Notes under the pieces: generated by a model
Databases searched by the model: none
What the model saw: only the letters and a program-made list of their open reading frames with translations
What the model was told of the DNA's origin: nothing
Assembly (NCBI GenBank): GCA_030148725.1
Contig: JASBSU010000029.1
Coordinates: 18,656 to 82,655, forward strand
Reading direction: 5' to 3'
DNA from: Hyphomicrobium sp.
GTDB lineage: Bacteria > Pseudomonadota > Alphaproteobacteria > Rhizobiales > Hyphomicrobiaceae
DNA length: 64,000 nucleotides
Translations under genes and position numbers: made by a program
Part shown: positions 5,322-31,555 of the stretch, in pieces
Numbering within the stretch: position 1 is the stretch's first letter
Layout: each line of letters begins with the position of its first letter

Positions 5322-6179
5322 CTAGCCCTCGCTGACATCCTGCGCTGCTTCGTTCGCCGCATCCCGATCGTGCATCAGCTTCAGGATTTGCGCGGCGGAT
5401 TCTTCCACCGAACGACGCGTGACGTCGATCACCGGCCAGCGATTCTGGGCACAGATCTTACGTGAGTACGCAAGCTCCGCATTGATCCTGTCGCGATCGA
5501 CGTAATCGCCGAGGTTTTTGTCGGCGAGCATCATGGCGCGGTGACGCCGCACCTCCGCCAGACGATCCGGGCTCGCAACAAGGCAAACGACGAAGGCGCG
5601 ATGCGGCTTCGTCAAGCGTTCCGGCAGCGGGATCGTCGGTACAAGCGGCAGGTTCGTCGTCTTGTATCCGCGCTGGGCGAGATAGATGCTCGTCGGCGTC
5701 TTCGACGTTCGCGAGATTCCGAGCACGATGATGTCGGCATCGTTGAGGTCCTCGGGCAGATGCCCGTCATCGTGCGCCATCGTGAAGTTCAAGGCATCGA
5801 TGCGGCGGAAGTAGTCTGCATCGAGAACGTGCTGGCCGGCCACCGTCGGCGTACGCGGCGCGCCGAGATACCCTTCCAGCACCTGCATGATCGGCTGCAG
5901 CACGGCGAGGCACGGAATTTTCAGCTCCGCGCAGCGCCGTTCCAGCTCCTCCGCGAGATCATGATTGGTGATCGTGTAGAGCACGATCCCCGGTGCCTGC
6001 TCGATCTCCTGCAGCACGCGCTTCATCTGCCGCGCCGTTCGCACCAGCGGATGCACGTGCTCGATCGGACGCACCAGCGCGTACTGCACCGACGCGGCCT
6101 TCGCGATCGTGGTCAGCGTCTCGCCGGTCGAGTCCGACACGAGATGCAGATGAAAGAAACTCGGCAGATCGCTGGCCAT
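5322..6179 (-). CDS. Pyruvate, phosphate dikinase regulatory protein (PPSR, DUF299)
   Basis: HLHLVSDSTGETLTTIAKAASVQY...VLGISRTSKTPTSIYLAQRGYKTTNLPLVP. Confidence 0.93.
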   Translation of the reverse strand: MASDLPSFFHLHLVSDSTGETLTTIAKAASVQYALVRPIEHVHPLVRTARQMKRVLQEIEQAPGIVLYTITNHDLAEELERRCAELKIPCLAVLQPIMQVLEGYLGAPRTPTVAGQHVLDADYFRRIDALNFTMAHDDGHLPEDLNDADIIVLGISRTSKTPTSIYLAQRGYKTTNLPLVPTIPLPERLTKPHRAFVVCLVASPDRLAEVRRHRAMMLADKNLGDYVDRDRINAELAYSRKICAQNRWPVIDVTRRSVEESAAQILKLMHDRDAANEAAQDVSEG

Positions 6180-29280: not shown

Positions 29281-30627
29281 TCAGGCCGGCCGCGCAGCCT
29301 TCGGCTTTGAAACTTTGCGCCCCTTGTCGGGCGCCGGTTTTATTCTCGCCGGCGCCGCCTCGGGCTCGGCGCCCTGTTCGTCCGACAGCCCCGACATCAG
29401 AGCGCGTGCGCGCCTCTCGATGGCGGTCGTCACCGTCTCGATGAGCGGATGACCGCCCGCCGGCATCGCCGCAACATCCGCCCCGGCTTTGCGCGTTTCG
29501 ACCAGCGCGCCTTTTGCCAGCGTCTCGACGCGCGCGATGAGGCGTGTCGCATTGAGCCCGACGTCGGCGGCAAAGCGCTGCCAGTGGCGCCGCTTCAAAT
29601 GCTCGCCGCGGTTCTTGCCGGCGATCTTCTGCGCCATGTTGCGTGTCACGTGCTCCCACGCTTCCCCGCACATGATGTCGTAGATCGGTGCCAGCCGAAA
29701 ACCTTTGCCGGAAATCATCATGGAATAGTTCTTCGCGTGCGCGTCGGTGTTGCACGCGATGACGTTGAAGATCACGTAGTCGAGAAGATTGACGACATCC
29801 GGCGCCTGCATGGCGTTGCGCGTCGTCGCGAAGATGTCGGCGAGCGACGGCCCTGCGATGCCGGTCTGATTCGATTCGTATTTCGCCGACGGCGGCTTGC
29901 CGAGCGCCTGGCAGAAATCCTCTTGGTGCAGGCGCCGCCAGCGCCCCTGCTGCTCGACGCGATCGTAGCGCTTCACCATCAGGTAGCTGCGTTGGCCCGC
30001 CTTCCCCGTCGTCACCTCCGGTGCGTTGAGACCAAGGCGCTTCGCCAGCACCAGGCACAGCGCTTCATTCTGCACGCCGCCGAACAGGCGCTCTGCATCC
30101 GGCTTCAGGATCCACGTCGACGGCGCCCCGTTGATCGGCACGCAGATGCGACCCTTCTCGTCGATGGCGACACCGAGCTTGGTCTGCACACCGGCCAGCG
30201 ACATCGAAACCCCGTCCTCGCCGACGAGAAACGGCTTCGACGGCAGCTCGTTCAGAATCTTTTCGAGCGTCTTGCCGTCGGGGATCGGACGCCAATCCTG
30301 CGTGCTGGTCGTCCCCGGCTTGCCGATCGACAGCGCGCCCGCGGTATCGCGTCCGAGCTCGGAGAGGATGCCGATGACGTCTTCGGGCGCTGCGCCCAGT
30401 TGCAGGCCGATGGCGCGCAGCTGCGTCGATTCCGGCAACAGGTTTGCCGCCCACGGCAGGAACAGCCGCGCCGGCACGCGGCTTGGCGACAGCGGCATCA
30501 GGAGCGAGATCGGGAACGCTCCGCGCATCGTCAGCCACTCAGGCGCATAGGTGAAGCTCGGACCGTCGCTCTGCACCTCGATGGTGCCGACGACGCGGCT
30601 CTCATAGTAGACGGCGAGCTTAGCCAC
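29281..30627 (-). CDS. hipA: HipA family toxin kinase
   Basis: VIACNTDAHAKNYSMMI catalytic motif; overlaps hipB by 8 bp. Confidence 0.93.
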   Translation of the reverse strand: MAKLAVYYESRVVGTIEVQSDGPSFTYAPEWLTMRGAFPISLLMPLSPSRVPARLFLPWAANLLPESTQLRAIGLQLGAAPEDVIGILSELGRDTAGALSIGKPGTTSTQDWRPIPDGKTLEKILNELPSKPFLVGEDGVSMSLAGVQTKLGVAIDEKGRICVPINGAPSTWILKPDAERLFGGVQNEALCLVLAKRLGLNAPEVTTGKAGQRSYLMVKRYDRVEQQGRWRRLHQEDFCQALGKPPSAKYESNQTGIAGPSLADIFATTRNAMQAPDVVNLLDYVIFNVIACNTDAHAKNYSMMISGKGFRLAPIYDIMCGEAWEHVTRNMAQKIAGKNRGEHLKRRHWQRFAADVGLNATRLIARVETLAKGALVETRKAGADVAAMPAGGHPLIETVTTAIERRARALMSGLSDEQGAEPEAAPARIKPAPDKGRKVSKPKAARPA

Positions 30628-30970
30628 GCGGGTCGTCCTCCGCGTCCGGCATGTCGTCGATGAGATCCGGCAGCAGCGGGTTGTCAGCGTTGCTGTTGGC
30701 CGACATCAGATCGAACGTCCTGAGGCCGACCGCAGCCGCCACCACCAGCGCGCGGCCGAGCTGGCAGCTTGGCTTTCCGGCTTCGAGCTCCAGGATGAAA
30801 CGGCGGCCGACGCCCGTGGCCAGCGCCAGATCGTCCTGCCGCATTTTCAGCGCTTCGCGGTGTTCGCGCACCATGGCCCCGAACTGCTGCGCGTGGGTCC
30901 GCGTCGCGTTTTCGAGCTCTGATACGGGTCGATCTGTTGTCGGCCGATTTGTTGCGGCTCTGTCTGCCAT
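30620..30970 (-). CDS. hipB: HipB-like HTH antitoxin
   Basis: FGAMVREHREALKMRQDDLALATGVGRRFILELEAGKPSCQLGRALVVAAAVGL HTH; N-terminal extension. Confidence 0.9.
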   Translation of the reverse strand: MADRAATNRPTTDRPVSELENATRTHAQQFGAMVREHREALKMRQDDLALATGVGRRFILELEAGKPSCQLGRALVVAAAVGLRTFDLMSANSNADNPLLPDLIDDMPDAEDDPRG

Positions 30971-30983
30971 GCCTGCCTCCGAT

Positions 30984-30999
30984 GTTCCCGTTCGGGAAC
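30984..30999. promoter_or_regulatory. Candidate HipB operator O1
   Basis: GTTCCCGTTCGGGAAC, 14 bp upstream of the hipB start. Confidence 0.85.
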
Positions 31000-31033
31000 C
31001 TTCGGGCCTGCGACTGGCTCCGACCGCTCGTAT

Positions 31034-31049
31034 GTTCCCGTTCGGGAAC
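31034..31049. promoter_or_regulatory. Candidate HipB operator O2
   Basis: GTTCCCGTTCGGGAAC, +50 bp from O1. Confidence 0.85.
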
Positions 31050-31083
31050 TTTTACCGGGATTCGCCCCTCAGCGCGACCCCAT

Positions 31084-31099
31084 GTTCCCGATCAGGAAC
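31084..31099. promoter_or_regulatory. Candidate HipB operator O3
   Basis: GTTCCCGATCAGGAAC, +50 bp from O2. Confidence 0.82.
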
Positions 31100-31133
31100 A
31101 TAAGCACCTGTGGACAGCCCTTCAACCCAATTT

Positions 31134-31149
31134 GTTCCCGGTCGGGAAC
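31134..31149. promoter_or_regulatory. Candidate HipB operator O4
   Basis: GTTCCCGGTCGGGAAC, +50 bp from O3. Confidence 0.85.
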
Positions 31150-31183
31150 ATTTAAGCGGCTAAACCGCCAATTGGTCCAAAAA

Positions 31184-31199
31184 GTTCCCGTTCGGGAAC
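31184..31199. promoter_or_regulatory. Candidate HipB operator O5
   Basis: GTTCCCGTTCGGGAAC, +50 bp from O4; ends 5 bp from the SemiSWEET stop codon. Confidence 0.85.
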
Positions 31200-31204
31200 A
31201 CGGC

Positions 31205-31453
31205 CTACCCGTTCCGGATCTTCATCACGAGGATCGAGCCGGCAAGGATGAACGTCACGGTGTTGGCGACGATGATCGGCAGATCCTCGATCAGGATGCC
31301 GTACATCAGCCACGCGAATACGCCCGCCGTGAAGATCGCGAACATCGCCAAGGAGATGTCCTGCGTCGAGTGCGAGCGCCACGTCTTTATGACCTGCGGA
31401 ACGAAGGCGACCGTCGTCAGAATGCCGGCGACGAGGCCGAGAATGGTCACCAT
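31205..31453 (-). CDS. SemiSWEET family transporter
   Basis: MVTILGLVAGILTTVAFVPQVIKTWRSHSTQDISLAMFAIFTAGVFAWLMYGI PQ-loop signature. Confidence 0.88.
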   Translation of the reverse strand: MVTILGLVAGILTTVAFVPQVIKTWRSHSTQDISLAMFAIFTAGVFAWLMYGILIEDLPIIVANTVTFILAGSILVMKIRNG

Positions 31454-31555
31454 CGATCGATTTCCTTCGCTCCGGATAGGTGCAACGCACATACACGACC
31501 CATGCGAAAAGCATAAGCCGTCCGGGCGGTTGCCGTGCGGGAGGTCCCTATCGGA

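Follow-up and report, generated by a model that had tools for sequence, protein, structure and literature searches.

An array of five near-perfect 16-bp palindromes of the GTTCCCG-N2-CGGGAAC type lies between hipB and a SemiSWEET gene in Hyphomicrobium sp., and each of its four centre-to-centre steps measures exactly 50 bp. The array is genuine and strongly conserved, it regulates a system of an established type, and its palindromes are, judging from the sequence, almost certainly operators for HipB (HipBA). Across hip loci, operator steps of about 28, 39 and 50 bp form a ladder with rungs of about 11 bp, one helical turn, and the data suggest that what is fixed between neighbouring HipBA complexes is their rotational phase more than one distance. 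We consider it likely that the array is the autoregulatory operator of the hipBA operon, at which autorepression is cooperative and rotational phase is set between neighbours.

The hipBA locus and its probable operator array

The window (the whole stretch of DNA analysed, 64,000 nucleotides) contains the following features of the locus, with operators 2 to 4 located by both sequence search and PWM scan.

29281 to 30627, minus strand: hipA, 448-aa Ser/Thr kinase toxin (Pfam HipA_C, 171.6 bits; Couple_hipA, 71.2 bits)
30620 to 30970, minus strand: hipB, 116-aa antitoxin/repressor with a helix-turn-helix domain (Pfam HTH_3, slightly above cut-off)
30984 to 30999, no strand: operator 1 (hipB-proximal), GTTCCCGTTCGGGAAC (sequence search; PWM score 23.0)
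31034 to 31049, no strand: operator 2, GTTCCCGTTCGGGAAC
31084 to 31099, no strand: operator 3, GTTCCCGATCAGGAAC, with 1 mismatch to the palindrome; overlaps the proposed -10
31097 to 31102, minus strand: putative -10, TATGTT, fused to the edge of operator 3 and 17 nt from the -35 (from sequence)
31120 to 31125, minus strand: putative hipBA -35, TTGAAG, beginning 26 bp 5' of operator 3, positioned as in 50-bp-class relatives
31134 to 31149, no strand: operator 4, GTTCCCGGTCGGGAAC
31184 to 31199, no strand: operator 5 (distal), GTTCCCGTTCGGGAAC (sequence search; terminator-like match)
31205 to 31492, minus strand: SemiSWEET sugar transporter gene (NCBIfam SemiSWEET_2, 118.8 bits), upstream of the array; context outside the system

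The initial annotation of this region, which had placed the palindromes at 30984, 31034, 31084, 31134 and 31184 with 50-bp steps, was exact in every position and step. Its view that the array fills the intergenic gap also holds, with the start of hipB at 30970 and the stop of the SemiSWEET gene at 31205 (both on the minus strand) as the bounds. When up to three mismatches to the palindrome were allowed, the window held 28 matches, compared with 8.8 (sd 3.0) in shuffled sequence, and none of 100 shuffles reached 28. The genome-wide motif search that the annotation had called for returned no exact match in the 3.84-Mb genome outside the five array sites. The four 34-bp spacers are, as had also been claimed, unrelated in sequence: pairwise identity is 9-14 of 34 positions, near the level of shuffled spacers (sum of best identities 80 versus 73 shuffled, p 0.04), which argues that the operators are not recent tandem copies. 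A recent tandem duplication is thus unlikely by spacer identity.

Two further observations concern sites of this kind in the same genome. On the minus strand a TTTTT run comes after operator 5, which, from its sequence, could double as the terminator of the SemiSWEET gene. Elsewhere, at C50:36434-36499 (L001:2935-3000), a second pair of related, weaker sites, again with a step of exactly 50 bp, lies upstream of a 136-aa ORF that adjoins a phage terminase gene; a PHROGs search gave no match for this ORF and no viral relative of it was found.

The two genes downstream of the array are arranged with hipB first and the start of hipA overlapping the end of hipB. Both the N-terminal Couple_hipA and the C-terminal HipA_C domains of HipA exceed their Pfam cut-offs, and alignment with E. 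coli HipA (34% identity) shows the kinase motifs to be intact, namely the SxAGxQ loop with its phosphoserine, TDxHAKN and YDI. No second hipA was found in a search of the same genome. HipB scores 57.8 bits against NCBIfam couple_hipB, under the cut-off of 71.65, and its pairwise comparison with E. coli HipB gave no significant similarity. Its AlphaFold model has Shewanella HipB (4pu7) as the nearest PDB match (rmsd 1.0 Å over 58 columns, E 0.004), so that the modelled protein is close in fold to that repressor.

Spacing classes in relatives and distant bacteria

A close HipB is present in 9 of 149 genomes of relatives, the Hyphomicrobium genome itself included. In most of these, 3-6 palindromes lie upstream of hipB at steps of 49-50 bp, a spacing that extends to a second genus (G020). 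The departures are individual: weak sites in G019, an irregular and partly masked array in G047, and one exceptional 67-bp step in G005. In G003 (L019) an insert of about 1.2 kb, which holds a 216-aa ORF, splits the array, and the 50-bp spacing is retained on either side of it. A search of all 149 genomes for palindrome pairs at any spacing of 35-65 bp recovered 15 distinct pairs. All of these are spaced by 49 or 50 bp, and 14 of them lie at hipBA or in the split hipBA array; a relaxed pair search at 50 bp agrees with this result, and a control with the pattern written backwards gave zero pairs. An orphan pair with a 50-bp step in G032 (L012:1500-1565) lies some 150 bp in front of an ORF to which we assign a Fic domain by eye, from its motif. 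No close hipB was found in that genome, and the pair is possibly the remnant of a lost hipBA.

The wider survey covered Alphaproteobacteria and a few bacteria of other groups, with 117 hipB loci in all, 106 of which remained after redundancy was removed. An unsupervised scan for palindrome pairs, made on the 117 loci with no motif supplied, found spacings of 50 bp (46 loci), 39 bp (24 loci) and 49 bp (19 loci), while shuffled controls gave almost no pairs. A PWM scan of the 106 loci found the palindrome, which takes the form TT(C/A)CCG-NN-CGG(G/T)AA and varies at its outer bases, in front of hipB in most cases; the loci with no site (11) or one site (9) mostly belong to the most distant HipB-like proteins. 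Among the 170 adjacent steps of 20-75 bp, 101 measure 48-51 bp, 63 measure 38-40 bp and 3 measure 41-47 bp, the off-ladder values being 46 and 47 bp in two Bradyrhizobium and 42 bp in L031. When loci were collapsed to 36 independent groups, the median step was 48-51 bp in 31 and 38-39 bp in 4. Spacers of the same rank are 30% identical between groups, compared with 25% when shuffled, and distant lineages, including Planctomycetota and Verrucomicrobiota bins, keep 49-50 bp with unrelated spacers.

The 39-bp class has at least two origins on the HipA tree, a quick FastTree tree with several long branches and unsure deep placements. One origin is a large clade, mostly Rhizobiaceae, and the other is a single Hyphomonadaceae locus (L031) nested among 50-bp loci.

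A phylum-wide search of 359 genomes at spacings of 34-64 bp found pairs in 9 genomes. No pair departed from 49 or 50 bp, and for 8 of these genomes comparison with the positions of HipB and HipA puts the pair beside hipBA. Here a HipA_C search was used in place of couple_hipB, which had returned mainly other helix-turn-helix proteins. An orphan pair with a 49-bp step in G503 (L410, C3:14362-14424) is close to an ORF resembling short-chain dehydrogenases and lies apart from the hipA detected in that genome. The association of the motif with hipB on which the initial annotation depended is therefore borne out by unbiased whole-genome searches, in which pairs are nearly confined to hipBA; in a bacterial genome, a pair with this geometry comes close to marking a hipBA locus.

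Operators of other sequence extend the series. The operator centres of E. coli hipBA are 28, 39 and 28 bp apart, and other hipA loci with TATCC- or TATACGC-type sites have steps of 27-28 bp. Mean steps of 27.5, 38.8 and 49.7 bp, together with about 71.8 bp for viral pairs, are linear at about 11 bp per rung, in a fit that is illustrative, the values 27.5 and 71.8 having been entered by hand. Six HipA-domain loci (L185, L233, L248, L264, L267 and L274) have palindrome pairs at 31 bp, off the 28/39/50 ladder, and possibly represent another HipA subtype.

These comparisons refine the proposal, made from the window array, that selection acts on operator spacing. Selection on spacing is well supported, since spacing is conserved in relatives despite diverged spacers. 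Two of the results that the annotation had named as refuting, variable spacing in relatives and a widespread motif unrelated to hipB, were sought and not found. On the other hand, 50 bp is the commonest distance (48-51 bp) and not the universal one: the class at 38-40 bp and the 28/39/28 arrangement of E. coli rule out a single universal 50-bp distance. What is conserved is spacing modulo one helical turn.

Matching palindrome pairs on viral contigs

The two-site pattern was also scanned by spacing over IMG/VR. At least 120 contigs carry the pair at 49-50 bp (including L284-L363 and L404-L457) and 27 carry it at 51 bp, with single contigs at 52, 60 and 66 bp, 6 at 38-39 bp and 6 at 18-37 bp; no contig had the pair at 40-48 or 53-58 bp. 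A further 8 fall at 71-73 bp, two of them being sums of shorter steps in three-site loci. Neither hipA nor hipB was found near the 49-50-bp pair in 79 of the 80 contigs examined, so HipB may not be the sole ligand of these sites. Neighbouring genes differ from contig to contig, some pairs lying between convergent genes and others inside long ORFs. In some groups the palindrome-spacer-palindrome unit is nearly identical between unrelated flanks, suggesting that the pair with its spacer is a small mobile cassette. A search for named phages akin to three of the contigs gave no useful match.

In two low-GC contigs, L286 (positions 5560-5720) and L340, a stretch of about 100 bp matches the operator region of hipBA in the alphaproteobacterium L121. 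The L286 contig has 33% GC and is without hipBA; the genes on L286 and L340 look bacterial, so these contigs may not be viral.

One speculative reading is that the phased pair is a recognition unit with a role beyond hipBA, in which many phages would use a small mobile cassette, two palindromes with about 34 bp between them, to sequester or exploit a HipBA-type complex of the host under the same phase rule. We consider this idea rather unlikely.

Rotational phase and proposed cooperative repression

The analysis establishes where the sites lie, that they belong with hipBA, that their spacing is quantised and that the promoter position is conserved, and it is on these points that the proposed mechanism builds. 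HipB dimers, alone or as HipA2B2, would bind each 16-bp palindrome. With one operator over the -10 and its neighbour just upstream of the -35, bound complexes would block RNA polymerase and so repress the operon. Adjacent complexes would cooperate, most likely through HipA by analogy with E. coli, for which cooperative operator binding and HipA-mediated contacts are cited in PMC7029023 and PMC10653801. A HipA-type interaction would need a set rotational phase between adjacent sites, and such a need would hold steps to about 28, 39 or 50 bp while the spacer sequence drifts; additional sites would increase occupancy and cooperativity.

With 10.5 bp to the turn, a step of 50 bp amounts to 4.76 turns, which leaves neighbours about 86 degrees apart. 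The earlier expectation that successive sites are rotated thus agrees with the calculation, at about a quarter turn per step. A filament or DNA wrapping at the array is plausible, and a superhelical rather than one-faced arrangement is possible. Neighbours at 50 bp are about 165 Å apart, compared with 93 Å for the 28-bp pairs of E. coli, so the E. coli HipA-HipA contact is not simply transferable.

The promoter itself offers another account of the spacing, in which the layout of an operator on the -10 and the next just upstream of the -35, and not contact between proteins, sets the distance. In about 20 of the 31 independent 50-bp groups a TTG does occur 26-29 bp 5' of the last operator (simple arithmetic gives an expectation of about 0.5 per position), which places a -35 at this point in most of them. 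In the window, a sigma-70 consensus scan found no promoter at threshold and the proposed -35 is of weak consensus; we infer the promoter there solely from positional conservation. Its place at operator 3 leaves two operators in the leader. A promoter layout could account for no more than the step in which the promoter lies, but the other steps are as strict, among them the two that lie beyond the proposed start in the window, and entire arrays exist at 39 bp. We therefore regard it as unlikely.

The constant period could instead be a relic of tandem duplication of a 50-bp unit that has had no time to drift. Such an origin would suit the uniformity of steps inside arrays and the behaviour of L031, whose steps have all shifted together to about 39 bp. 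Nevertheless, spacers within an array are little more alike than expected, and the spacing is retained where spacers are saturated with substitutions, as it is with unrelated spacers in the Planctomycetota and Verrucomicrobiota bins, where indels would be expected; a relic is most improbable. That the palindromes serve another DNA-binding protein and that hipBA is a mere neighbour is an explanation we find very unlikely. It draws on the viral contigs that have pairs of the same spacing without hipBA and on the rare bacterial orphan pairs (G032 and G503), but it sits poorly with the near confinement of the pair to hipBA in whole bacterial genomes and with sites that stop just 5' of the hipB start in distant lineages. 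Cooperative autorepression with a set phase between neighbouring complexes remains our preferred reading.

Several elements of this arrangement have precedents. E. coli K-12 hipBA likewise has several palindromic operators (O1-O4) upstream of hipB, with spacings on the same ladder; it differs in its motif (TATCC-N8-GGATA, against TTCCCG-N2-CGGGAA in the window) and in having four sites at 28/39/28 bp rather than five at 50 bp, and the window array is accordingly not of the E. coli type. In Caulobacter crescentus, hipBA1 and hipBA2 resemble the window in having multiple palindromic operators per promoter, three each according to PMC8545095, and PMC7029023 calls the intervals between the Caulobacter hipBA repeats consistent with the E. 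coli higher-order complex. Rhizobiaceae hipBA shares the palindrome family, with three sites, but at steps of 38-39 bp as against 50 bp. In nearly all Legionella species HipBST has three evenly spaced sites separated by uniform gaps of 53 bp, and EMSA shows HipB binding to each of them (PMC10653801); with 18-nt sites we calculate about 71 bp centre to centre, two rungs up. Unlike the window, HipBST has another motif with imperfect repeats, and HipS and HipT replace full-length HipA; the single, full-length HipA of the window (448 aa) sets it apart from such split kinases.

Multiple HipBA operators, the triple sites of Caulobacter and the even spacing of HipBST were thus already known, whereas the 50-bp class and the ladder appear to be new: we found no description of either in the literature covered, which took in few subscription papers. 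The ladder supplies a testable spacing rule for HipBA repression, in which 28, 39 and 50 bp are used and half-turn distances avoided in very distant bacteria, and the natural arrays of 3-6 sites are substrates for structural work. The matching viral pairs suggest an unexplored link between phages and the geometry of the HipBA repressor. How HipBA assembles on promoter DNA bears on the silencing of the HipA toxin and on the level of persister formation.
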